Of a stretch of 64,000 bases of DNA, positions 24,304 through 34,574 are shown in pieces; the first letter of the stretch is position 1, and each line of letters starts with the position of its first letter. The notes beneath the pieces are model-generated. The model searched no databases and had not been told where the DNA came from. It worked only from the letters and a program-made list of their open reading frames with translations. The stretch comes from Lentzea fradiae (lineage in GTDB: Bacteria; Actinomycetota; Actinomycetes; Mycobacteriales; Pseudonocardiaceae): the NCBI RefSeq assembly GCF_900100955.1, contig NZ_FNCC01000018.1, forward strand, positions 124,001 to 188,000, given 5' to 3'. The position numbers and the translations under genes are program-made.

Positions 24304-24843
24304 CTACGCGAGGCCGTTCGGGGACAACCCGTCCAGCACCACGCCGACCGCTTTGTCCACCACGGGCCCGTCACCCGGAGCGTTGGCCAGTGCGGTGATG
24401 AGCAGGTAGACCTCGGCCACGGTGACGTCGGGCCGCACCTCCCCCGCCTCCTGCGCGCGGGACAGCACCGCCCCGACCGCCTCCCGCAGCTCGGCGACCG
24501 CCGCCTCCACGTCGCCGGTCGAGCCGGTCTCCTCGCGCAACGCGATCAGCGCGAGCTTCGCCGGGGCGCCGGAGACCAGTTCGCGGAACGTCGTGCGGAA
24601 CGCCTCCCCGGCGTCGGCGGCCTGCGCCCGTGCCCGCGCGGTGGCGGTGAGCAGGCCGAAGTGCCGCACGATCGTGGCGTCCACCAGCAGCCGCTTGGCC
24701 GGGAAGTGCCGGAACACCGTGCCGATCCCGACCCCGGCCCTGCGCGCGACCTCCTCGGTCGACCCGGCCTGACCGAACTCCCGGAAGACCTCGTCCGCCG
24801 CGGCCAGGACCCGCTCCCGGTTCGCCTGCGCATCGCTCCGCAT
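24304..24843 (-). CDS. TetR family transcriptional regulator
   Basis: From ATG 24843 the protein has 179 residues; an in-frame start at 24879 would place the first codons inside the operator. The helix-turn-helix is typical (VLAAADEVFREFGQAGSTEE then AGVGIGTVFRHFPAKRLLVD). The C-terminal domain matches the SbtR-like TetR group. It is divergent from a SnoaL-like gene and separated by two palindromes (24865-24910), so it most likely represses itself and that gene. Confidence 0.9.
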   Translation of the reverse strand: MRSDAQANRERVLAAADEVFREFGQAGSTEEVARRAGVGIGTVFRHFPAKRLLVDATIVRHFGLLTATARARAQAADAGEAFRTTFRELVSGAPAKLALIALREETGSTGDVEAAVAELREAVGAVLSRAQEAGEVRPDVTVAEVYLLITALANAPGDGPVVDKAVGVVLDGLSPNGLA

Positions 24844-24864
24844 CCCGACATCCTGCCCCTTGCA

Positions 24865-24910
24865 TTCCGGAGTCGTCACTCCGTATGTTTCCGGAGTGAC
24901 GACTCCGGAA
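24865..24910. promoter_or_regulatory. Twin palindromic operators of the TetR/SnoaL pair
   Basis: CGGAGTCGTCACTCCG (24868-24883) and CGGAGTGACGACTCCG (24892-24907) are each palindromes of the form CGGAGT-N4-ACTCCG. The two are also mirror images of one another over 19 bases with an 8-base spacer. They fill most of the gap between the divergent starts. Binding by the neighbouring TetR protein is inferred. Confidence 0.7.
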
Positions 24911-24922
24911 AGGGGACACTCC

Positions 24923-25357
24923 GTGCTCTCGACAGCTGAACGGACTTTCCACGCCCTGCTCGACGGCGTCTGCCGCCTGCACGCGGGCGATGACGGCCAG
25001 GTCGACCGGCTGGCCGCGCTCTACGCCGAGCCGACCGACGTGCGGCACCCGATGGCTCCGCTCGGCGACACGCCGCTGGTCAGCCGCGAGGACCTCCGGC
25101 AGCACTTCGCCGCTGCCGGCGCCGGCCGCCTCGCCGGCCTGCGGGCGGAGGACGTGCGCGTCCACGCGACAGGCGACCCCGAGGTGTTCGTCGGCGAGTT
25201 CACCTACCGCGGCGAACCGGACTGGTCCGTGTCGAACGTCATCGTCTTCCGGCTGCGCGACGGGCTGATCGCCGAGTCGCGGGACTACCTCGACCACCTC
25301 GGCCTCGCCCGCGCCACCGGCGGCGTCGACGCACTGGCCGAGCGCCTCCGGGCGTGA
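24923..25357 (+). CDS. SnoaL-like / NTF2-fold protein
   Basis: The 144-residue protein starts at GTG 24923 with GGAAAGGGG upstream. It has the NTF2-like cone fold pattern: an N-terminal helix (TFHALLDGVCRLHAGDDGQVD), RLAALYAEPTDVRHPM, and strands GEFTYRG and NVIVFRLRDGLIAESRDYLD at the C-terminus, which is the signature of SnoaL-type proteins. Members include ketosteroid isomerase-like enzymes; the substrate is unknown. It is probably the target of the divergent TetR repressor. The stop directly abuts the stop of the sigma factor. Confidence 0.8.
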   Translation: MLSTAERTFHALLDGVCRLHAGDDGQVDRLAALYAEPTDVRHPMAPLGDTPLVSREDLRQHFAAAGAGRLAGLRAEDVRVHATGDPEVFVGEFTYRGEPDWSVSNVIVFRLRDGLIAESRDYLDHLGLARATGGVDALAERLRA

Positions 25358-26533
25358 TCACCGCAGGAGGGCCGCCAGCCTGAGGCGCAGGAGCTCTCGT
25401 TCGGACTCGGTCCCGGCGAGCTCGATCGCCTCCCGGTAGGCCGACACCGCCTCGTCGTCCCGGCCCAGGCGGTGCAGCAGGTCCGCACGAGCCGCCCTGA
25501 ACGGGTGGTAGTCGCGGAGCTTCGGCTCACCGGCGAGCTCGTCGAGCAACGCGAGACCCGCGGCGGCGCCGTCGCGCATGGCGACCGCCGCGGCCCTGTT
25601 CAGCGCCACCACCGGTGACGGCGCGAGCTTGGTCAGGACGTCGTAGAGAGCCACGATCTGCGGCCAGTCCGTGTTCTCGAAGTCCGGCGCCTCGTCGTGC
25701 AACGCGTTGATGGCCGCCTGCACGCCGTACGGGCCGTATCCGCCCGTGAGCGCGCGTTCGACCAAGGCGGTGCCCTCGTCGACCATGTCGCGGTCCCAGA
25801 GCGTGCGGTCCTGGTCCTCCAGCAGGTCGTGCCGCGCGTCCCGGCGGGCGTGGACGAGCAGCATCAACGCCAGCAGCCCGGTCACCTCCCGTTCGGCGGG
25901 CAGCAGCCCGTGCAGGATCCTGGCCAGCCGGATCGCCTCGCCGGCCAGGTCGGCGCGCTGGGCCGCGTACCCCTCGGTGAAGATCGAGTAGACGGCCTGC
26001 AGCACGCCGGGCAGGCGTTCCGGGAGCTCGTGCGGGTCCGGCACGCGGAACGGGATGCGCGCCTGGCTGATCTTCTTCTTCGCACGCACGATCCGCTGCT
26101 GCATGGTCGTGACCGGCACCAGGTAGGCCCGCGCGACCTCGGGCGTCGTGAAGCCCGCCAGGAACCGCAGCGTCAGCGCGCCCCGGTCCTCCTCCGGCAG
26201 CGCCGGGTGCGCGCACGTGAAGAACAGCTCCAGCCGCTCGTCCGGCAGCCCGTCCGCGACCGGCGGGTCCGCCCGGTCGACCTCGACCTGCAACACCGCG
26301 AGCCGGGCCGCGTGCACCCGGTCGCGCCGCAGCCGGTCGACCGCCTTGCGGCGCGCGGTCGTGAGCAACCACGCGCCGGGCCGGTCGGGAACGCCGTCCA
26401 CCGGCCAGTGCCGCAACGCCGCCTCGATCGCGTCGGAGGTGAGCTCCTCCGCCAGGTCGAGGTCACCGAAGCGCTTGACCAGGGTGGCGAGCAGCCTGCC
26501 GCGCTCCTCCCGGAACACCTGCTCGACGTTCAC
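25358..26533 (-). CDS. ECF42-type RNA polymerase sigma factor
   Basis: The 391-residue protein starts at GTG 26533, just 7 bases after the DGPF gene. It has sigma region 2 (FREERGRLLATLVKRFGDLD...PGAWLLTTARRKAVDRLRRD), region 4 (LRFLAGFTTPEVARAYLVPV then MQQRIVRAKKKI), and a C-terminal helical/TPR-like extension of about 200 residues (DUF6596). This long C-terminal domain plus a YCII/DGPF neighbour defines group ECF42, which lacks a classical anti-sigma factor. The extension is thought to regulate activity. Confidence 0.92.
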   Translation of the reverse strand: MNVEQVFREERGRLLATLVKRFGDLDLAEELTSDAIEAALRHWPVDGVPDRPGAWLLTTARRKAVDRLRRDRVHAARLAVLQVEVDRADPPVADGLPDERLELFFTCAHPALPEEDRGALTLRFLAGFTTPEVARAYLVPVTTMQQRIVRAKKKISQARIPFRVPDPHELPERLPGVLQAVYSIFTEGYAAQRADLAGEAIRLARILHGLLPAEREVTGLLALMLLVHARRDARHDLLEDQDRTLWDRDMVDEGTALVERALTGGYGPYGVQAAINALHDEAPDFENTDWPQIVALYDVLTKLAPSPVVALNRAAAVAMRDGAAAGLALLDELAGEPKLRDYHPFRAARADLLHRLGRDDEAVSAYREAIELAGTESERELLRLRLAALLR

Positions 26534-26540
26534 GGCGGAC

Positions 26541-26879
26541 TCAGAAGTCGAACTCGGCGATCGGCCGCACGACCACCGCGCCACCGTCACGCGAACCGGG
26601 ACACTTCGCGGCCCACTCCAGCGCCGCGTCGAGGTCCGGCACGTCGATCACGTCGTAGCCGCCGAGCACCTCGCGCGTCTCGGCGAACGGCCCATCGGTG
26701 ACGGTGCGCTTGCCGTCCGGTCCCACCTGGACGGTCGTCGCCGTGACGAGGTCGGCGAGCGAGTGCCCGGAGACGAGCACGCCCGCGTCCCGCATCTCCT
26801 TCTCGTAGGCCATCCAGTCCTCGACGGTGCAGTTCACCTGCTGGTCGGCGGCGGCGTAGATCATCAGCATGTACTTCAC
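26541..26879 (-). CDS. YCII-related DGPF protein
   Basis: The 112-residue protein starts at GTG 26879 behind GAGGAGGG. It begins KYMLMIYAA and contains the defining TDGPFAETREVLGGYDVIDV motif, ending with a KCPG site. DGPF proteins accompany ECF42 sigma factors and are thought to be their partners or targets. First gene of the two-gene operon. The 26880-27030 stretch upstream has no supported gene beyond its promoter. Confidence 0.9.
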   Translation of the reverse strand: MKYMLMIYAAADQQVNCTVEDWMAYEKEMRDAGVLVSGHSLADLVTATTVQVGPDGKRTVTDGPFAETREVLGGYDVIDVPDLDAALEWAAKCPGSRDGGAVVVRPIAEFDF

Positions 26880-27030
26880 GGGTTTGCCCTCCTCGATCGG
26901 GTGTTACGGGACCACGACGAGCGGGCAGGCGCCAGATCGACACGGGCCGCGAACCTTTTCCACCCGGTCCACAGCTCGCCGAACCGGGCGTGCGGTGCGT
27001 CATCTACAACCGGACCATCTGCCCCGGCTC

Positions 27031-27306
27031 CTACGCCGAGGCGAGCTGTCCGTCTGCCCACTGACGGGCTGCGTCCGCCATGCGCTGTTTCCACGGCTTC
27101 GGATCGCTGGTCGCGATGTCTGCCCACATGTCGACGTTGGCGCGAGCGAACACGCTGACCGCAGCGCGAGGCGCCGACACCCATGCGCCCGTGCGGCTCA
27201 CGAGCTGCTCGGCCTGCACGGCGGTGTGCCCGGCAGCGATCAGCCGCAGCGCGAGACAGCACGGGTCGATCCATGAGGCGCCACCCGCCGGCCACGCCCG
27301 ATCGAC
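27031..27306 (-). pseudogene. C-terminal remnant of an APH-fold kinase
   Basis: About 92 codons align well with the C-terminal third of the intact kinase at 27584-28399: AWPAGGASWIDPCCLALRLI versus AWPTRGAAWIDACCLIIWLI, then AAGHT/ASGHT, FARANVDMWADI versus FALANIRLWDEI, and a matching QRMADAARQWAD tail. Upstream of the aligned part the frame shows no kinase sequence and no N-lobe or catalytic loop, so this is a broken copy. It suggests a past duplication and deletion at the island edge. Confidence 0.7.
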
Positions 27307-27317
27307 ATCCGAGCCGT

Positions 27318-27509
27318 GCCGTGAGCCTCGGCGCACCGGCCTACCTCACCGACGCACTCGGCAACGCGACCAAACTCGTCGTCCTGCCGATCGCACTCGG
27401 CGTCGTGTACCCGCTGCTGCGGAAGTCCGAGGCGAGCCGGCCCGACTGGCTGCCCCGCATCCTGCTCGGCTCCGCACAGCCGCCGACCTACTTCGGCAAG
27501 CACGAGACC
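27318..27509 (+). pseudogene. Possible fragment of a membrane protein gene
   Basis: This plus-strand frame has strong third-position G+C bias and encodes a hydrophobic run (LVVLPIALGVVYPLLRKSE) followed by DWLPRILLGSAQPPTYFGKH. It has no start of its own and meets the kinase remnant on its left. I recognise no family. It could be the tail of a gene whose front was lost when the island rearranged, or chance. Confidence 0.25.
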
Positions 27510-27561
27510 CATAACGACGAACGTCCCGCGCCCATCAGGGGGCGGGACGTTCGTCGTTATG
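27510..27561 (-). terminator. Terminator at the end of the radical SAM operon
   Basis: Arms 27510-27529 and 27542-27561 are 20-base perfect complements with a short inner loop. The hairpin starts 22 bases after the kinase stop on the minus strand and defines the operon end. Confidence 0.75.
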
Positions 27562-27583
27562 TGGTTGTGGGTTCGTCGATTGT

Positions 27584-28399
27584 TCAGGAGGTGCCGACGG
27601 TGACCATGCGGGAGTCAGCCCATGCTCGTGCGGCCTCGGCCATCTGCCGGTGCCAGTCCGACGGCTTGTGACTGACGATCTCGTCCCACAGGCGGATGTT
27701 GGCGAGGGCGAACACGTCGACGGCCGTTGGTGGCGCGTCTCGCCATGCACGAGCCTGCTGCACCTCTGCCTCGGCTTCGGCCGGGGTGTGGCCGGATGCG
27801 ATTAGCCAGATGATCAGACAGCAGGCGTCGATCCAGGCGGCGCCACGAGTGGGCCATGCCCAGTCGACCATGCGCACCGTTCCGTCGGGCGTGATGAGGA
27901 CGTTCGCCGGGTTGAAGTCCGTGTGCAGCAGGCTGCCACCAGCGAGAATCTCCGGGTCTTGACCGTCGAGGTACGACCGCCATCGCAGATGGTTTTTGAT
28001 CGGCAGGTCGGGGCAGCGCAACACGGCGAGAAGGTCGAGAGCCTCAGTCACCAACGGCAGGTCCGGTGATCCGGGGCTGTAGTCCGGGTGTCGCCCCTCG
28101 ACGTGCTCGAAGCCGAGGACGTTCCACCCCGCAACGTCTTCGATGTGCCACAGCAGTGCGGGCGCGATAGGCCACACATGAGCGTTGATCAGGGCCTCGC
28201 GACCTTGGGTGATCACGCCGGGCTGGTCAGTGCGGAGACCCTTCACGAACACGGTTCCCGACTCGGTCCGCAGGACCGCCGCGAGAGCCGAGTTGAGTCC
28301 CTCGGACACCGTGCGAGCCTTGAGAACCGGACCTGTGCGAGCGATCACCGCGGCGTGCAGAGCCTCCGGAAGGCTTTCCCAATCAGTCCGCTGCGGCAT
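27584..28399 (-). CDS. Aminoglycoside phosphotransferase-fold kinase
   Basis: The 271-residue protein starts at ATG 28399 with AAGGGAA upstream. It has the APH/choline kinase layout: N-lobe Lys in TVFVKGLR (K53), catalytic loop HTDFNPANVL (159-168) with Asp and Asn in place, and VDWAW (178-182) as the metal-binding Asp. So it should be an active phosphotransferase of small molecules or peptides. It is the last gene of the operon holding a radical SAM enzyme and a 43-residue peptide, 97 bases after the peptide gene. A role in peptide modification or self-protection is inference. Confidence 0.85.
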   Translation of the reverse strand: MPQRTDWESLPEALHAAVIARTGPVLKARTVSEGLNSALAAVLRTESGTVFVKGLRTDQPGVITQGREALINAHVWPIAPALLWHIEDVAGWNVLGFEHVEGRHPDYSPGSPDLPLVTEALDLLAVLRCPDLPIKNHLRWRSYLDGQDPEILAGGSLLHTDFNPANVLITPDGTVRMVDWAWPTRGAAWIDACCLIIWLIASGHTPAEAEAEVQQARAWRDAPPTAVDVFALANIRLWDEIVSHKPSDWHRQMAEAARAWADSRMVTVGTS

Positions 28400-28452
28400 G
28401 GATTTCCCTTGCGCTGCTCGGCTTTCGTTGCCGCCGAGGCTAGCGGAAACAG

Positions 28453-28487
28453 CGGGTGGTCAGACGCTCGCCGCGCCTGACCACCCG
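28453..28487 (-). terminator. Hairpin between peptide gene and kinase gene
   Basis: Arms 28453-28463 and 28477-28487 are 11-base perfect complements around a 13-base loop. The hairpin begins 9 bases after the peptide stop on the minus strand. Without a T-run it may act as a leaky terminator or stabilise the upstream message, as hairpins after RiPP precursor genes often do. Confidence 0.55.
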
Positions 28488-28495
28488 TTGACTCA

Positions 28496-28627
28496 TCAGG
28501 AGTACGGCGCGTCGTCCGATGCCGAACACGAGCATCGGTTGAACGTGCCGAGCTGCTCGACGTCGTCGACCATCTGCACCGCGTCTGCGGCGATGGGCAG
28601 CGGCTCCAGCTCGACAAGAATCGTCAT
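28496..28627 (-). CDS. Candidate RiPP precursor peptide, 43 residues
   Basis: ATG 28627 overlaps the radical SAM stop (ATGA) and is preceded by GGAGGGAAGG, a strong ribosome site. The peptide begins MTILVELEPLPIAADAV, has an acidic, leader-like middle (VDDVEQLGTFN) and ends in a short Cys/Ser segment, RCSCSASDDAPYS. The two Cys are the only ones. Its size, its position directly behind a SPASM-type radical SAM gene, and the Cys/Ser-rich tail all fit a modified-peptide precursor. I do not recognise a named family. Cleavage site and product are unknown. Confidence 0.7.
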   Translation of the reverse strand: MTILVELEPLPIAADAVQMVDDVEQLGTFNRCSCSASDDAPYS

Positions 28628-29745
28628 GACCTTCCCTCCTCTCCGTGCTGGCAGTAGCGGGACAAGGGGGCTTTCGCCTCTTGGTAAAGCTTGGCCAGCG
28701 GGCGGCATGTCGAGCAGGTGCCCGACAGAGCACAGCCGGAGCAACCGCCCGTACGCAGTTGCAGCGCGTCGGCGATCTCGCCGAGCCTGGTCAAGCCGTC
28801 GAGACCCTCGTCGAGCAACGACACGTGCTCGTCGCGCCCGATCTTGCAAATCGTGGCCTTGCCGTGCGGATCGGTGGCGAAATGCGTATGTCCTGCGCCG
28901 CACCCGGCGAACACGGTGCGCTTGCGCGGAAACTCCGTGGCCTGCGAGATCAGCGTTTCGCCGCCACCGTAGATCGTTGGCGAAATATTCGAATAGGTGG
29001 CGTAAGAGACACCGAGGTTTTCGGCGAACGCGCGCATTTCGTCCAGCTCGTGCGCATTGTGCCTAGTGATGACCAGGCTCAGGTTGAGCGGCAGTCCGGC
29101 CTCGCGAGCCGCAGCAATGCCACGACTGAATGCCTTGAACGACCCGCGACGGCGGGTGAGGCCGTCGTATGATTCCTCGGTGGCGCCGTACACGCTGACC
29201 GTGAGCCGATACGGGCGACGACCAGAGAAGAGGTCCAGCAACGGTTTGGAAGCAAGTCGCGAGCCGTTGGTCGCTACGGTGATCATCATCCCGTAGTCCC
29301 ACGCTCGTGCGTACACCTGCGGGAACAGCCGGTCAACGGTTGCCTCGCCGCCGGTGATCTGAAGCCACAAAACACCAGCGTCATGCATTACCTCGAGCAC
29401 TCGCTCGCGGTCGGGCCATTCGAGCCCCGAAAATTGCTTCAGACCGAGATAGCAGTGCTCACAGTCGTAATTACACCCGAGATTCACCTCATACGACGCA
29501 CGGCCGAACCCGTGAAGCGACGGCTCGCGCACCTTTACCGCCTGCGCGAGCGGCTCACCCGCAATATCAACGTCCCAGCGCTGACGCGCGGCGTCGACAA
29601 GCCACTGCGGGCACAGCTCGTTCGGGGACTTCGACGCGGTGAGCAACTCGCCGAACTTGGCCGAACCGATCTTTACGGCCCGCTGGTCATCCGGTTTCAG
29701 CACTAGGTAGTCGGTCAGGAATGGGCTTGCGATCAGCGCGTGCAT
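28624..29745 (-). CDS. Radical SAM/SPASM peptide maturase-like enzyme
   Basis: From ATG 29745 (GGGAGAGG upstream) the product is 373 residues. An N-terminal domain of about 80 residues comes first and could bind a leader peptide. The radical SAM motif CNYDCEHC lies at 91-98, the SAM-binding GGE in LQITGGEATVD, and the C-terminal SPASM region contributes Cys in GCGAGH, TICKIG, GGCSGCALSGTCSTC and YCQHG, enough for auxiliary iron-sulfur clusters. SPASM enzymes install thioether or C-C bonds in peptides. The overlapping peptide gene is the obvious candidate substrate. Confidence 0.88.
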   Translation of the reverse strand: MHALIASPFLTDYLVLKPDDQRAVKIGSAKFGELLTASKSPNELCPQWLVDAARQRWDVDIAGEPLAQAVKVREPSLHGFGRASYEVNLGCNYDCEHCYLGLKQFSGLEWPDRERVLEVMHDAGVLWLQITGGEATVDRLFPQVYARAWDYGMMITVATNGSRLASKPLLDLFSGRRPYRLTVSVYGATEESYDGLTRRRGSFKAFSRGIAAAREAGLPLNLSLVITRHNAHELDEMRAFAENLGVSYATYSNISPTIYGGGETLISQATEFPRKRTVFAGCGAGHTHFATDPHGKATICKIGRDEHVSLLDEGLDGLTRLGEIADALQLRTGGCSGCALSGTCSTCRPLAKLYQEAKAPLSRYCQHGEEGRS

Positions 29746-29784
29746 CAACCTCTCCCGTGGTGGGCGCTCGGCGTCCCGTGCACC

Positions 29785-29985
29785 TCAGCCACCGTCGGCA
29801 GCGAGGCAGACGGGACAAGCGTGTTCAGGGTCAACCGGCCTCTTCGGCGAGTAGATCGGCACGAACGGTTCGCGGTCGCACAAGGGGATAACTTCCCCAC
29901 CAGCGATCGACCGCGCCCGGTGCGCGTCGCCATCGCGCATCGACGCGTTGCGCCAGCGGTCGTCAGATTTGAGCGTGGCGGCCAT
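29785..29985 (-). CDS. Small protein with possible zinc-binding Cys
   Basis: The 66-residue protein is polar and ends in PEHACPVCLAADGG; with an earlier Cys in VIPLCDREPF it could bind a metal through CxnCxxC. Similar short proteins are seen in accessory regions of actinobacteria, but I cannot name a family. It lies 39 bases upstream of the radical SAM gene and 3 bases after the membrane protein gene, so it belongs to the same operon. Confidence 0.55.
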   Translation of the reverse strand: MAATLKSDDRWRNASMRDGDAHRARSIAGGEVIPLCDREPFVPIYSPKRPVDPEHACPVCLAADGG

Positions 29986-29988
29986 GTT

Positions 29989-30276
29989 CTAGGCCGCAAC
30001 CAGTTCGGGCAGCGTCCACACTGACGCGGCTGGGTCCCTCAGACGGACAGGCGACCTAGGGAACGGCCTTTCGGGTGAGATCGGGCGAGTTGTCTCGACC
30101 AACGCCTCTACCTCGGCCTTGATCCGTTCCTCAAGCTCGCCGACGGACATCGTTCCTTCCCCGGCTCCGGCGTGCTGCCCGTACGTCTTCGTGATGAACC
30201 ACGAGACCACCAGGGCAGCAACCGACAGCACTCCGAGCACGAAAACGGCCGTGAAGATGAGAGCGGTACCGAACAC
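29989..30276 (-). CDS. Small single-pass membrane protein
   Basis: GTG 30276 is preceded by AAGGAGAT and gives 95 residues. The N-terminus is one long hydrophobic helix (ALIFTAVFVLGVLSVAALVV). A charged region follows (SVGELEERIKAEVEALVETT) and then a Pro/Arg-rich tail. No known domain. It shares the minus-strand operon of the island; its job is unknown. Confidence 0.6.
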   Translation of the reverse strand: MFGTALIFTAVFVLGVLSVAALVVSWFITKTYGQHAGAGEGTMSVGELEERIKAEVEALVETTRPISPERPFPRSPVRLRDPAASVWTLPELVAA

Positions 30277-30313
30277 GTCGAAATCTCCTTGTGTCCCATA
30301 GGGCTCGTCGCGG

Positions 30314-30625
30314 CTACTGCCGCAGGTGGTCACCCGGCGGGGACCACTGGAAGCGCTGTTCGAACGCGACGGCGAGAGGTTCGAACGGCATCGAACGAAC
30401 AGGGCCACGCGCCATCGGCATCAGGGGGCTTTCCCACATCCGCTGAGGAGGCAGCCGAGTCGCAACCGCGTAGTCCTCGTGGAAGACGGCGACAACGTCG
30501 AGGTGCTGCCGATCCGAGCCCCAGCGCCAAAACTGCAACGCGTGGTCCACGCCGTCCCGATCGAGAAGGGGCAAGACGCCGAATCCGGCGCGCAGAAGGC
30601 GCTCGACATCTGGATGCGTGCTCAC
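30314..30625 (-). CDS. Conserved-looking small protein of unknown function
   Basis: GTG 30625 with AAGGGGA upstream gives 103 residues; a longer open frame to 30655 lacks a ribosome site. The protein has no membrane segment; HALQFWRWGSDRQHLDVVAV and FEQRFQW suggest a compact mixed fold. No family recognised. It is the first gene of the minus-strand operon. The 258 bases between it and the divergent DUF6879-side gene hold no supported gene and must contain both promoters. Confidence 0.55.
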   Translation of the reverse strand: MSTHPDVERLLRAGFGVLPLLDRDGVDHALQFWRWGSDRQHLDVVAVFHEDYAVATRLPPQRMWESPLMPMARGPVRSMPFEPLAVAFEQRFQWSPPGDHLRQ

Positions 30626-30883
30626 CGCGGTTCCCCTTCGAGTGGCGTGCGTCATTGCCGGCGCAGCTGCTGCGCCGGTGGAAGCGGAACTGGCGACCGC
30701 GTCCGTGTTCCCGTCGCCAGTTCCGCCCGATCACCATCTCGAACACCAAGCACGAACGCAAGCAATCCGAGCAATCTTGCGCATACTTGCCCCACTCGGC
30801 TTACGCGATGGCTACACAGAGCAGCATCCGAAGCCACAGGTCGCCCGGTATGGCGTTGACCCGGATGGCAATTGCGCAACAGG

Positions 30884-31129
30884 ATGCTTGCCGGTGCGCA
30901 ATCTCTGGAGGAGATCCTGAAACTGGAGTTCCTCGGCACGACCAGCAACAGCGGCTCGTGTCCGACCCTGTTCCTCACCGATCGCGGGACCTACGTAGTG
31001 CAGGGATACCGCGTCACGGACCCCGAGGCGATCGCAACCGCTGAAGCTCGTGAAGGCGGATTGCCCGACACCGAGACGCTCATCGAGATCCCGGTCGAGC
31101 TGCTGAAGTTCGCACCGCAGGGTGTGTGA
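30884..31129 (+). CDS. Small protein paired with DUF6879
   Basis: From ATG 30884 the product is 81 residues; TTG at 30872 would add four. The core reads EFLGTTSNSGSCPTLFLTDR then GTYVVQGYRVTDPEAIA, a pattern I associate with small proteins found just before DUF6879 genes in Streptomyces-like accessory loci. Its stop overlaps the DUF6879 start (TGATG), so the two are coupled. Function unknown. Confidence 0.65.
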   Translation: MLAGAQSLEEILKLEFLGTTSNSGSCPTLFLTDRGTYVVQGYRVTDPEAIATAEAREGGLPDTETLIEIPVELLKFAPQGV

Positions 31130-31653
31130 TGCCGGAACTGATCAGCGGCGCAGCGTTCGGCGCCCTCTTCCGCGAGTTCGAGAGTTCGGCTTGGCGATGG
31201 GAAGCGCAAGGCACCTACAACCAGCCCGACGAGGTCGAGCCGTGGCAACGATGGCGAGATGGTGTTCCTGTACTCGACGACCTCGAATGGCTGCGTTCAT
31301 GGCTTGACGACATCCGGGCCGCTACCGAGGTTGGCAAGGTCTTCCAACGGGTCCGGATGCTGACCGAGCCGTTGACGGAGTACCTGCGGTGGCAGATGGA
31401 AGTGACACCGGCGAACGTGGACGCCGGGGAGGAGATCCGCCTGCTCACGCAGGCTGCGGCATCGAGGCTGGCTCTACCGGAGCATGACTTCTGGATCTTC
31501 GATCGTGTCCGGGTTGCAGTACTCCACTACGGTCCTGGAGGACTCATAGGTGCAGAGATCGTGACCGAACCCGCTACGGTGGCGCGGTACGAGCAATGGC
31601 GCAAGATTGCTTGGGCCGAGGCAGTCTCGTATGAGGATTTCGTCAAGACCTAG
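31129..31653 (+). CDS. DUF6879 family protein
   Basis: The 174-residue protein (ATG 31129, or GTG 31126) has the DUF6879 pattern: FGALFREFESSAWRWEAQGTY, RMLTEPLTEYLRWQ, and DFWIFDRVRVAVLHYG. The mix of Trp and Arg residues is typical of the family. These genes stand next to XRE/DUF397 pairs in actinobacteria and have been proposed to be part of signalling or toxin-antitoxin-like sets, which is unproven. Confidence 0.8.
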   Translation: MPELISGAAFGALFREFESSAWRWEAQGTYNQPDEVEPWQRWRDGVPVLDDLEWLRSWLDDIRAATEVGKVFQRVRMLTEPLTEYLRWQMEVTPANVDAGEEIRLLTQAAASRLALPEHDFWIFDRVRVAVLHYGPGGLIGAEIVTEPATVARYEQWRKIAWAEAVSYEDFVKT

Positions 31654-31670
31654 CCACCAACGAGGAGCCC

Positions 31671-32549
31671 GTGAGCACGCCAGAGGAGCGCCGCGCCGAG
31701 TTCGCCGACGAACTTCGGCGGGTCCGGCAAGACGTCGCCAAGTTGAACGGCAAGGACTTCGCCGCTCGGTGTGGTTGGCATGCTTCGAAGGTCTCGAAGA
31801 TCGAAAACAAGCGTCAAGATCCCGACGACTCCGATGTCCTCGTATGGATGACCACGGCGGGGGCATCGGAGTCCGAGACCGAGCGCATGCGCGCATGGCT
31901 GCGCGGGATCAACATCGACGCGGCCTCGTGGAAACATCAGCTCCGCAAGGGACACAGCGACCGCCAGACCTACAGCAAGCAGGTTGAGGCGACCGCCAAA
32001 CGCATCCGCGTGTTCGAGCTGATCATCGTGCCAGGGCTTGTGCAGATCGCCGACTACGCGCGGTGGGTCTTCGACGCCGCTGCGAGGTTCCAGCGAGTCC
32101 CGATCGACACGGAAGAGGCGCTGAGCATCCGCATGCAGCGGCAGCACGCCCTCTACGACAACGCAAAAGAGATCGAGCTGCTCATCTGTGAGTCGGCGCT
32201 GCTCTACTACGTGTGTCCTCCAGAGGAGATGGTTGCGCAGATCGACAGACTGCTCGCCTTGCTCGGACTCCGCGTCAAGTTCGGCATCATTCCGTTGGGC
32301 ACCCGGCTTCCGGTCGTTCCGCCCAACGGCTTCTGGATAGTCGGCGAACGCGTGTTGATCGAGACCGTCGACACGGAGATCAACACCGAAACACCCTCCG
32401 ACATCGAGACCTACAACCGTCTGATGGACGAGTTGTGGACTGTGGCGGTGATGGGTAACGACGCTCGCAAGATCCTCGTTCGTTGCTCCGAGGCCGTTTC
32501 AGCCGCCGCCACGGCTGACAAAGTTCCGCCTCAGGAGGTAATCAGCTAG
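31671..32549 (+). CDS. XRE-family regulator with DUF5753 (WhiJ-like)
   Basis: GTG 31671 follows GAGGAG and gives 292 residues. The N-terminal helix-turn-helix covers about 10-75 (ELRRVRQDVAKLNGKDFAAR then GWHASKVSKIENKRQDPDDS). The larger C-terminal DUF5753 domain includes IIVPGLVQIADYARWVFDAA and GFWIVGERVLIETVD. The WhiJ-like family pairs with small DUF397 proteins, as here; the DUF397 start follows its stop at once. Confidence 0.88.
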   Translation: MSTPEERRAEFADELRRVRQDVAKLNGKDFAARCGWHASKVSKIENKRQDPDDSDVLVWMTTAGASESETERMRAWLRGINIDAASWKHQLRKGHSDRQTYSKQVEATAKRIRVFELIIVPGLVQIADYARWVFDAAARFQRVPIDTEEALSIRMQRQHALYDNAKEIELLICESALLYYVCPPEEMVAQIDRLLALLGLRVKFGIIPLGTRLPVVPPNGFWIVGERVLIETVDTEINTETPSDIETYNRLMDELWTVAVMGNDARKILVRCSEAVSAAATADKVPPQEVIS

Positions 32550-32747
32550 ATGGAACAGGTGCGCTTCAAGAAGTCGAGCTACAGCGGCGGAAGTCCCGAG
32601 GCATGCGTCGAAGTCGGGTTGGCGAGCGAGGGTGTTCACGTGCGCGACTCCAAGAACACGGCGAACGCGGTAACGCTGACGTTCGGGCCTGCCGCGTGGG
32701 CCGCCTTCATGTCCTCCCCGAGTGTCGCGGTCCCAACATCCGCCTGA
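32550..32747 (+). CDS. DUF397 family protein (BldB-like)
   Basis: The 65-residue protein has the DUF397 signature: FKKSSYSGGSPEACVEVGL, then VHVRDSKNTANAVTLTFGPA and AWAAFM. Its ATG immediately follows the XRE stop and CAGGAGG precedes it. BldB, needed for Streptomyces development, is in this family. It is likely the partner of the regulator upstream. Confidence 0.88.
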   Translation: MEQVRFKKSSYSGGSPEACVEVGLASEGVHVRDSKNTANAVTLTFGPAAWAAFMSSPSVAVPTSA

Positions 32748-32824
32748 CGGGCCGCGCCGAGCTTGCGGGGGTCGACCCACATCGGGTCGCCCCCCTTCGT
32801 CTCGGTTGGGCCTGCTGACCTCCG

Positions 32825-33052
32825 CTACGTGGCGACTCGGTCGGACCTCAGTCCCCGCGCTCGCGCGCTACGCAGCGCCAAGCCTCGGAAGTAAGCACGT
32901 CGGGCCAGCAGCGCCCGCCGTTCTCTCTGCTCAGGTGCAAGGTTCCGATGCGGATCGACTTGATCCTCGAAACGCTGTAGAGCTGCGCGTCGAGCTGGTT
33001 CCGTTCGCAATGCGAGATCTTTTGTGTTCGCCCATGACGCCAGCGATAGCCA
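32825..33052 (-). pseudogene. Truncated small conserved gene fused to integrase remnant
   Basis: The frame reads SWANTKDLALRTEPARRAAL then a helical region ending in LARRAYFRGLALRSARAR. This resembles the C-terminal two thirds of a common small actinobacterial protein (WA...TAPAR...RFE..VDP...RA...ARKAHF..LALKSA). Its N-terminus and start codon are missing: upstream, in the same frame, is the stop of the integrase remnant. A TTG inside could start a 61-residue product, but loss of the front is more likely. Confidence 0.5.
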
Positions 33053-33664
33053 TCAATCCGGCTTCACTACCGCCTGCATCCTGCCAACGGTGTAAAAAGT
33101 CATGCGGACGCGGTAAGCGTGCAGAGAGTCGGCGAGACCTGCTCGCTCACCAAGTCGGTTGAGCATCATTTTAATACCGTTGATCGACAGCGGTTTGCCG
33201 GTCCGGCGCGACAGCCAAAGGGCAGGGCCGAAGTCGGCGAGCGCCATATTGCGGAGTGCCTGAAGATCGGTACCCCTGCACGCCAGTAGAACCGCCGCGT
33301 GGTCCTCATCGCTCAATAAAGGAGTGAGCTTGTCCGGCACCTTCGGCGCCTCGGTCTCGTCGAACGGATTGCCGCCGGTGATCTGCTTCCGCTTCTTAAG
33401 CCACGTGATGTACACGCGCAGGTTGCGGTAATGGTGCGCCGCGTTCGCGGGCGAAGACTTGTCGACGATGTCGACGTGGAACGACTCGACGTCGTCCGGT
33501 TCGATGTCGTAGCCCTCGGTCTCAAGCCACTTCCGCCACCCCCGGGCGGTGTAGAGGTACCCCCTCAGCGTGTTGTCTGAGAGCCCCTGCGCCTTGAGTG
33601 ACTTGCGCCACCTCTCGGCCTGCATGTCCCACACAGCGGCGCTCGTGCACGTCGTCGTCCCCAT
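33053..33664 (-). pseudogene. Truncated tyrosine recombinase / integrase
   Basis: The 203-codon frame keeps the N-terminal SAM-like core-binding domain of phage-type integrases (SLKAQGLSDNTLRGYLYTAR, then HHYRNLRVYITWLKKRKQI) and NPFDETEAPKVPDKLTPLLS. The catalytic domain is broken. It jumps from DLQALRNMAL straight to LWLSRRTGKPLSINGIKMML, so the stretch with the first catalytic Arg is absent. It then ends at LHAYRVRMTF, where the HxxR-type motif is spoiled, and lacks the final His and the Tyr nucleophile. It therefore marks a dead mobile element beside tRNA-Ser. Confidence 0.8.
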
Positions 33665-33781
33665 GTCTCAACCTCAGTAACCGTGTTGTCACCGAGCGCC
33701 GCGCAAGCCACGGGTCCAGCCGCCCCCTCGTCCGACCCCCCGTTTTGGGCCGTCGAACCCCCGTCCGGTAAGGTTCTCCAC

Positions 33782-33866
33782 GGAGGATTCGCATAGCGGC
33801 CTAGTGCGCACGACTGGAAATCGTGTTGGGTTCACCCCCTCACGGGTTCAAATCCCGTATCCTCCG
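33782..33866 (+). tRNA. tRNA-Ser(GGA)
   Basis: Acceptor arms GGAGGAT (33782-33788) and ATCCTCC pair, with discriminator G at 33866. The anticodon stem CACGA/TCGTG holds loop CTGGAAA, giving anticodon GGA for Ser, with a long variable arm as in class II tRNAs and a GGTTCAAATC T-loop. No CCA is encoded. An integrase remnant lies just upstream. Confidence 0.95.
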
Positions 33867-33875
33867 CTCGCTGAC

Positions 33876-33906
33876 AGGGCGCCGGACGTTCAACGTCCGG
33901 CGCCCT
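33876..33906 (+). terminator. Terminator after tRNA-Ser(GGA)
   Basis: Arms 33876-33890 and 33892-33906 are perfect 15-base complements around one base (the real loop takes in a few pairs). It begins 10 bases after the tRNA and precedes the GPP34 gene. Confidence 0.75.
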
Positions 33907-33923
33907 TCGCGCGTTACGGTGAC

Positions 33924-34574
33924 ATGATGCTGCCAGAAGACCTGATGCTGCTGTTCGTCAACGGCCAGACCGGCAAGCTGCGCGTCGACTCGATCTCGGC
34001 GGACAACTCGCTCGCCGGCGCCCTGCTCATCGAGCTGGTCGAGTCGGGGCGCGTCGCGTTCGAGCCGGGCGGCAAGAAGCTCCAGGTGGTCGACCCTACG
34101 CCGCTGAGGAACCCGTTGCTGCAGGAGGCGCTCGGCCGGTTCGACAAGCCGATGAAGCCGCAGCGGGCCGTCGAGCGGCTGCGCAAGAAGGTGCGCGACA
34201 CCGTGGCCGCGGAGCTGGAGAGCCGGGGTGCGGTGCGCGTCGAGCACCGCAAGGTGCTCGGGATCTTCCCCGCCAGGAGCTACGTCGTCACCGACGAGGC
34301 CAGGGCGGACGAGGTGCGGAGGGTCGTCGGCGACGTCGCGCGCGGCTATCGCGGGGCGGACGCGCGCACCGGGTCGCTGATCACGTTGCTGCACGCGGTG
34401 AAGTCCGTGCACAAGGTCGTCGAGGGCGACAAGCGCGACCTGAACCGGCGGGCCAAGGACATCGCGGCCGGCAACTGGGCCGGTGACGCCGTGCGCAAGG
34501 CCGTCGAGGCGATCCAGGCGGGCGTGGTCGCCGCGGCGACCGCTTCCGCCGCTGCCGCGTCATCCGGCGGATGA
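33924..34574 (+). CDS. GPP34 family phosphoprotein
   Basis: The 216-residue protein starts at ATG 33924 (or 33927). It begins LPEDLMLLFVNGQTGKLRVD and has the GOLPH3/GPP34 pattern: an N-terminal helix, ALLIELVESGRVAFEPG, and the helical bundle with RRVVGDVARGYRGADARTGS and LITLLHAVKSVHKVV. Eukaryotic relatives bind phosphatidylinositol 4-phosphate; bacterial ones are abundant in actinobacteria and their role is unknown. An Ala-rich tail ends the chain. It stands alone, convergent with the nuclease gene. Confidence 0.85.
   Translation: MMLPEDLMLLFVNGQTGKLRVDSISADNSLAGALLIELVESGRVAFEPGGKKLQVVDPTPLRNPLLQEALGRFDKPMKPQRAVERLRKKVRDTVAAELESRGAVRVEHRKVLGIFPARSYVVTDEARADEVRRVVGDVARGYRGADARTGSLITLLHAVKSVHKVVEGDKRDLNRRAKDIAAGNWAGDAVRKAVEAIQAGVVAAATASAAAASSGG

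Follow-up and report, generated by a model that had tools for sequence, protein, structure and literature searches.

The 64,000-nucleotide stretch of Lentzea fradiae DNA analysed here, called the window below, carries on its minus strand an operon of three genes that would make a ribosomally synthesized and post-translationally modified peptide (RiPP). A radical S-adenosylmethionine (rSAM) enzyme with a SPASM domain (29745-28624) is followed by a small peptide gene (28627-28496) and by a kinase with the aminoglycoside phosphotransferase (APH) fold (28399-27584). The original prediction had described a SPASM rSAM enzyme, a 43-residue peptide gene overlapping it and having its own ribosome-binding site, and a kinase ending the operon; coordinates and open reading frames (ORFs) are as it gave them, with the rSAM stop codon and the peptide start overlapping in the ATGA at 28627-28624. 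The span that it singled out, 27584-29985, also takes in a 66-amino-acid (aa) ORF at 29985-29785. The peptide of the window has the sequence MTILVELEPLPIAADAVQMVDDVEQLGTFNRCSCSASDDAPYS, and the operon comprises the following features:

28624-29745, minus strand: radical SAM/SPASM enzyme, the putative peptide maturase, 373 aa, ATG start at 29745
29530-29745, minus strand: N-terminal, probably leader-binding domain of the maturase, similar to a RiPP recognition element (RRE), residues about 1-72, from the predicted structure
29452-29475, minus strand: rSAM motif CxxxCxxC (C91, C95, C98), invariant in 19/19 sequences
28651-28902, minus strand: cysteines of the SPASM auxiliary clusters, C282 to C365; C335 is replaced in one of 19 sequences (L034)
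28635-28640, minus strand: AGGAGG, ribosome-binding site of the peptide gene, seven bases upstream of its start
28496-28627, minus strand: putative precursor peptide gene, 43 aa, with a homologue adjoining the rSAM gene in 156/159 loci
28535-28627, minus strand: leader part of the precursor with the conserved acidic patch VDDVE-L
28499-28534, minus strand: core of the precursor, CSCSASDDAPYS, with the codon of Tyr42 at 28504-28502
27584-28399, minus strand: APH-fold kinase, 271 aa
27902-27925, minus strand: catalytic loop of the kinase, HTDFNPAN, residues 159-166, in which H159, D161 and N166 are invariant in 29/29 sequences

Conservation of the peptide and its maturase

The original prediction hinged on the peptide being conserved beside the enzyme in other genomes. 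A peptide gene lies directly behind the rSAM gene in 156 of 159 loci, 153 times recognized by a motif derived from the first loci seen and three times by eye (L049, L224, L230); in the remaining three the contig ends just after the rSAM gene (L036, L047) or that gene is truncated (L054). The association of peptide and enzyme is conserved, beyond what chance would give. The 159 loci were oriented from 164 sequences, five of which (L042, L048, L053, L055, L056) were dropped as having no rSAM ORF above threshold; they include duplicates, the same genome having come from two collections (for example L037/L251 and L039/L249), and a few of the 156 have a short or broken rSAM frame (L046, L049) or a shorter ORF (L231, L261, L271, L272).

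A scan of one genome per species yielded 53 rSAM loci; identity in the best segment is 52-71% for the 51 actinobacterial ones and 24-27% for two distant proteobacterial ones. By whole-genome search the rSAM gene is present in 71 of 392 sampled Streptomyces genomes, in 18/297 genomes of the window's own family, in 30/298 and 19/200 genomes of two more families, to which an Actinomadura and a Winogradskya genome, respectively, belong, and in 6/396 genomes of a phylum-wide sample; these samples overlap partly and gene fragments count as matches, while two re-sampled sets, partly covering families already searched, were kept out of the frequencies. The cassette also occurs on mobile elements. In Streptomyces phage Success (L273, NC_073472.1, 266-2380), genes 3, 2 and 1 are the rSAM enzyme, a 38-aa peptide and the kinase (43% identity), annotated as oxidoreductase, hypothetical protein and kinase and located at one genome end near helix-turn-helix (HTH) and recombinase genes. 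A 20.9-kb Streptomyces element named plasmid phiDSM40276, which has a recombinase, carries the cassette as well, and the rSAM gene is present in eight plasmid records (one of them chromosome-sized, two from one strain). The rSAM and peptide genes were found together on 12 IMG/VR contigs, a part of which probably represent prophages from genomes included in the counts above.

Distinct peptides measure 38-81 aa, with starts chosen mechanically, and their tails fall into two classes. The usual form is C-x-C-x-A-[GS]-D-D-[NQA]-P-[YFHN] in the CxC class and C-[GNS]-D-D-N-P-Y plus 0-2 residues in the GC class; parsimony counts one switch between them on a FastTree tree and three on a careful tree. 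The constant feature is the core Cys, which none of the 159 distinct peptides lacks. Both Asp positions admit exceptions, with Ser, Asn or Glu at the first in some peptides and Asn or Ser at the second in a few. A C-x3-D spacing is present in 101/105 distinct CxC-class cores, that of the window included, and the GC class has C-x-D instead. The window peptide falls under no Pfam or NCBIfam model, two further peptides are likewise unmatched in Pfam, and neither the peptide nor the kinase matches a PHROG family at 0.01.

The rSAM enzyme has a SuiB/SkfB-like predicted architecture. The maturase model aligns with SuiB and SkfB over 309-322 residues, from residue 2-3 on, at 14-16% identity, and its seven C-terminal cysteines (282/300/335/338/344/347/365; 19 sequences aligned) have a spacing like that of the SPASM cysteine rule. 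The N-terminus is predicted in the order E-E-E-H-H-H, with a predicted local distance difference test score (pLDDT) mostly of 92-96. SuiB and SkfB carry an RRE and, because the predicted maturase aligns with them from residue 3 on, it probably shares this leader-binding domain; the N-terminal part was compared as part of the whole model, and few structural alignment rows span it. As in SuiB/SkfB-type systems, the peptide gene adjoins the enzyme gene, but the peptide is a different one, and the cassette has a kinase or a GNAT acyltransferase instead of the export genes found in those systems.

The original view that this is a RiPP-type locus outside any named class holds as far as Pfam and NCBIfam go: the peptide has no model to its name, and the rSAM enzyme family has none beyond the generic radical SAM domain. 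Among NCBIfam rSAM families (mycofactocin, StsB, AlbA, PqqE and others) the window protein reaches 67.3 bits at most, the best 25 of 47 rows all being below their cut-offs; in a second comparison its 13 rows again stay under them, and the best NCBIfam match among 18 other members, given as an E-value alone, is 7e-24. Viperin or nucleotide chemistry was considered and rejected. The cassette shares with prokaryotic viperins and their nucleotide kinases (pVip) a weak similarity of the rSAM core (PADLOC, E 4e-12) and a nearby kinase, but it scores 37.9 bits versus the NCBIfam viperin cut-off of 180 and has SPASM cysteines and a peptide gene; viperins are present in the structural match list, below the better matches SuiB and SkfB.

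The kinase, its tyrosine and the GNAT protein

The catalytic loop of the kinase had been described as intact, and it is: K53, E68, H159, D161, N166 and D179 are invariant in 29 aligned kinases, the window's included. The model (pLDDT 96) has the APH/choline-kinase fold by structural comparison, together with the catalytic HxDxxxxN and the metal-binding D of APH-fold enzymes. In sequence the resemblance is faint, the Pfam APH model staying below its cut-off for the window kinase (19.2 vs 23.2 bits) and matching 18 of 29 members at E 0.01, and searches of PDB sequences returned only weak matches to Ser/Thr-kinase loops.

A kinase whose start lies at most 1.5 kb from the rSAM stop is present in 121/156 loci; this tally leaves out the two loci at contig ends (L036, L047) and the one with a truncated rSAM gene (L054), and the kinases of L257 and L284 run into a contig end. 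Its presence co-varies strongly with the residue that follows the conserved Pro of the peptide, the co-variation resting on few losses. In a first tally by locus, this residue was Tyr in 118/118 kinase-bearing loci with a called peptide, and in kinase-less loci it was His 18, Phe 10, Tyr 4 and Asn 3 times. Among distinct peptides, Tyr occupies the position in 123/123 kinase-linked versus 4/36 kinase-less cases, the 36 having His (18), Phe (11), Tyr (4) or Asn (3). For this second table identical peptides were merged and 10 of 15 viral, phage and plasmid loci were added, the copies or near-copies L277, L278, L281, L285 and L288 being omitted, as was L049.

The pattern persists when kinship is taken into account. 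On a FastTree tree of 155 rSAM proteins, kinase-keeping branches make up 27.1 of 34.2 substitutions per site and hold none of the seven changes of the residue (P 1.6e-5 with changes distributed by length; P 9e-4 using the four changes outside kinase-loss branches). The corresponding figures for a careful 97-row tree are 25.6 of 31.9, again 0/7 changes, and P 1.1e-5. Kinase-bearing branches amount to about 80% of tree length on both; L046, with its short frame, is omitted from the trees, and L049 also from those of 97 rows. A Pagel-type likelihood-ratio test returned p = 1.2e-6, 7.7e-7 and 1.1e-5 on three trees, the first two values being approximate, with some rates at their bounds. Of 22 genomes selected among those with a kinase-less locus, 13 lacked any kinase of the family (E 1e-15) and nine had a match, which in G1158 belongs to a second cassette and in other genomes lies in unrelated surroundings.

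Ser had been proposed as a target of the kinase. As a general target, Ser or Thr was rejected, since 49/53 kinase-linked GC-class tails have neither after the core Cys; all 70 kinase-linked CxC-class tails have one, which could serve as a target there. The C-terminal Tyr is probably the target instead, given that it is kept in all kinase-linked peptides and does not change on kinase-bearing branches.

A second enzyme fills most of the gaps left by the kinase. A protein with a GNAT domain, roughly 290 aa long (the single member scanned matches Pfam Acetyltransf_1 at 29.5 bits), is encoded behind the peptide in 42/156 loci, 33 without and nine with a kinase, and beside 34/36 distinct kinase-less peptides. 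Only two loci (L204, L243) have neither enzyme, versus 25.6 expected by chance with kinship ignored. In all 42 distinct GNAT-linked peptides the Pro is preceded by N and followed by one last residue. The best argument that kinase and GNAT may serve one purpose, such as masking or self-protection, is this near-complementary pattern.

Relatives of the kinase also occur directly behind a different rSAM gene in two actinomycete genomes (L295, L298), where the rSAM protein has a Cys/Pro-rich C-terminal tail, perhaps a substrate fused to its own enzyme.

A proposed pathway and its alternatives

We propose, with a probability of about 0.7, that the cassette builds a RiPP from a leader-held peptide that is modified by the rSAM enzyme at its core Cys and phosphorylated by the kinase at Tyr42. 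The peptide, translated just after the maturase, would be held through its acidic leader by the RRE-like domain at the N-terminus of that enzyme, and the enzyme would then use S-adenosylmethionine to modify the C-terminal core at the conserved Cys. The modification would most likely be a thioether toward the Asp/Asn side, here C34-x3-D38. The APH-fold kinase would next phosphorylate Tyr42, the residue after the conserved Pro, a step for which the indirect evidence of the sequences makes Tyr the most likely acceptor; the phosphate could mature, mask or disarm the product. In other lineages a GNAT acyltransferase would join or replace the kinase and, with the kinase gone, Tyr would be free to become Phe, His or Asn. 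Host proteases might release the peptide, and a divergent XRE gene might regulate the operon.

Several observations weigh against this pathway. Four distinct kinase-less peptides retain Tyr (those of L027, of L037/L251 from Glycomyces, of L243 and of the viral contigs L280/L281), and the kinase frame is broken or partial in three Tyr loci (L222, L232, L261). A paired sign test, with three to four informative pairs, is not significant (p 0.125-0.25), one or two of five pairs showing no difference in Tyr and none a difference in the opposite direction. With few independent kinase losses to draw on, the strong P values derive from Tyr having stayed unchanged for so long. Nor does every sequence call for a Cys-Asp thioether: the CX3D spacing is absent from the GC class, and a few peptides have one or the other Asp replaced. 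Finally, the recurrent neighbour families (the 30 largest clusters) showed neither a dedicated protease nor an exporter.

The nature of the rSAM product is the part most readily disputed. A thioether from the core Cys to Asp or Asn is a first guess and the most likely outcome by analogy, the precedent being the Cys-Asp thioethers that PapB forms in CX3D motifs of freyrasin-type ranthipeptides (PMC9413430). The cassette resembles ranthipeptides in that most of its CxC-class cores have C-x3-D and are encoded next to a SPASM enzyme, and differs in its single motif near the very C-terminus, in the C-x-D of the GC class and in its extra kinase or GNAT. SPASM enzymes catalyse several reactions, SuiB, one of the best structural matches, reportedly makes a carbon-carbon link, and the Cys-Asp spacing differs between the two tail classes, so a decarboxylated or epimerized Cys or a carbon-carbon link, for example, is a serious contender to which we give somewhat less than even odds. 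Against it stand the core Cys in every distinct peptide and the near-constant PapB-like spacing of the CxC class.

It is also conceivable, if doubtful, that kinase and GNAT are interchangeable means of self-protection, a toxic finished peptide being disarmed inside its producer by phosphorylation of Tyr or acetylation of another group, much as in producers of aminoglycosides and peptide antibiotics. The complementary occurrence of the two enzymes fits this idea, but the fold is not decisive, the choline kinase LicA and other APH-fold enzymes tying structurally; no exporter is among the recurrent neighbours listed; and the kinase is third in a tight peptide operon, a place that tailoring enzymes also take. 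Unlike antibiotic-inactivating APH enzymes (corramycin kinase, AmiN, APH(4)-Ia; 10-16% identity), it is encoded directly behind a peptide gene. Only as a speculation that is unlikely to hold in full do we extend the picture to a new RiPP family of actinobacterial chromosomes, plasmids and phages, with a Cys-cross-linked C-terminus phosphorylated on Tyr by an APH-fold peptide tyrosine kinase. Here the kinase and the GNAT would act as exchangeable safety catches for a weapon that strains or mobile elements use on one another, and phage Success would carry a lysogen-borne weapon or exclusion factor.

The following genes are divergent to the operon:

31126-31653, plus strand: DUF6879 protein (186 bits), divergent to the operon, with members of its cluster in 21/159 loci
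31671-32549, plus strand: divergent XRE/DUF5753 regulator, from Pfam, the probable control gene
32550-32747, plus strand: DUF397 partner of the XRE/DUF5753 regulator, 62.7 bits

Alternatively, the modified peptide might be a signal that the XRE-type regulator reads and that controls a switch, for instance in development or lysogeny. In 103/147 loci with enough DNA, one of two regulator clusters is represented at most about 3.6 kb upstream of the rSAM gene, compared with a share of about 5% expected from 107 HTH_31 matches in the 8.5-Mb window genome, and the cassette of phage Success is near HTH and recombinase genes. The clusters are nevertheless loose (single-linkage BLAST, one member each confirmed by Pfam, from the window and L051), the density control is rough, coming from one genome and another detection method, regulators of this kind abound in actinobacteria, and the link is explained more simply by control of the operon; a signalling role is improbable. 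That the kinase is a passenger or a small-molecule enzyme, its link with Tyr reflecting shared ancestry only, is very improbable: relatives elsewhere in genomes, some adjoining a different rSAM gene, and a paired sign test above 0.05 speak for it, but the kinase is kept in 121/156 loci, none of seven changes falls on kinase-bearing branches and the likelihood-ratio tests on three trees give p of about 1e-5 or below.

The pathway of leader-held peptide, Cys modification and Tyr phosphorylation would make this a RiPP of the rSAM kind, hence no new kind of system, although the family may be new. Kinase-fold proteins are present in other RiPP operons, as in class V lanthipeptides (LxmK type) and with kinase-fold cyclases (PMC9486802 and PMC12291118), and the cassette differs from these in its covarying Tyr, its rSAM partner and its intact catalytic loop. 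No lanthipeptide-type domain was found in the 10 window proteins scanned by Pfam. Class V lanthipeptide operons have HopA1-like or other dehydratase/cyclase partner genes. We know of no tyrosine-phosphorylated RiPP. In an open-access library, titles and abstract beginnings yielded no description of the locus, and the only match there to the tail motifs DDNPY/GDDNPY was an unrelated cancer paper; with no published description found, the cassette may represent a new family of bacterial peptide product. Three public records label its parts hypothetical protein, radical SAM protein, oxidoreductase, kinase, GNAT or aminoglycoside phosphotransferase. The cassette is common to many soil actinobacteria and one of their phages and, if our proposal is true, some genes annotated as aminoglycoside phosphotransferase would be peptide-modifying enzymes, a tyrosine-phosphorylated RiPP would become testable, and a phage-borne RiPP cassette would be open to study in a laboratory host.

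Surroundings of the operon in the window

The upstream membrane and Cys-containing small proteins, which had been named as possible helpers, lie outside the conserved core. Homologues of small66, TM96 and p113 occur in 2, 2 and 5 of 53 loci, and these proteins were rejected as core parts; in the clustering of 159 loci TM96 is found in six and p113 in four, all within the window's own genus. The 66-aa protein upstream of the rSAM gene (29785-29985, minus strand) ends in HACPVCLAADGG, and among the 53 loci searched only the two from Lentzea have it.

An integrase N-terminal domain fragment (PF13495, 29.0 bits; 33053-33664, minus strand) and a tRNA-Ser gene (33782-33867, plus strand) lie 3-4 kb upstream of the rSAM gene. 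The region around the cassette may thus descend from an element integrated long ago; a search of 24800-34200 for direct repeats of at least 18 bases that would mark its boundary found none. On the other side of the operon, the broken 3' end of a second kinase gene (27031-27336, minus strand) matches the kinase genes of five congeneric loci at 84-89% DNA identity and the adjoining intact kinase at only 50% protein identity; the intact kinase and the Lentzea kinase of L004 share about 58% protein identity. The broken copy is likely a trace of cassette exchange by recombination between related cassettes.

A scan for promoters and terminators gave nothing above chance; its terminator pattern, for which a T run is needed, does not list a near-perfect long hairpin seen by eye at 27510-27561. 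This hairpin stands directly 3' of the kinase stop and is probably the terminator of the operon.

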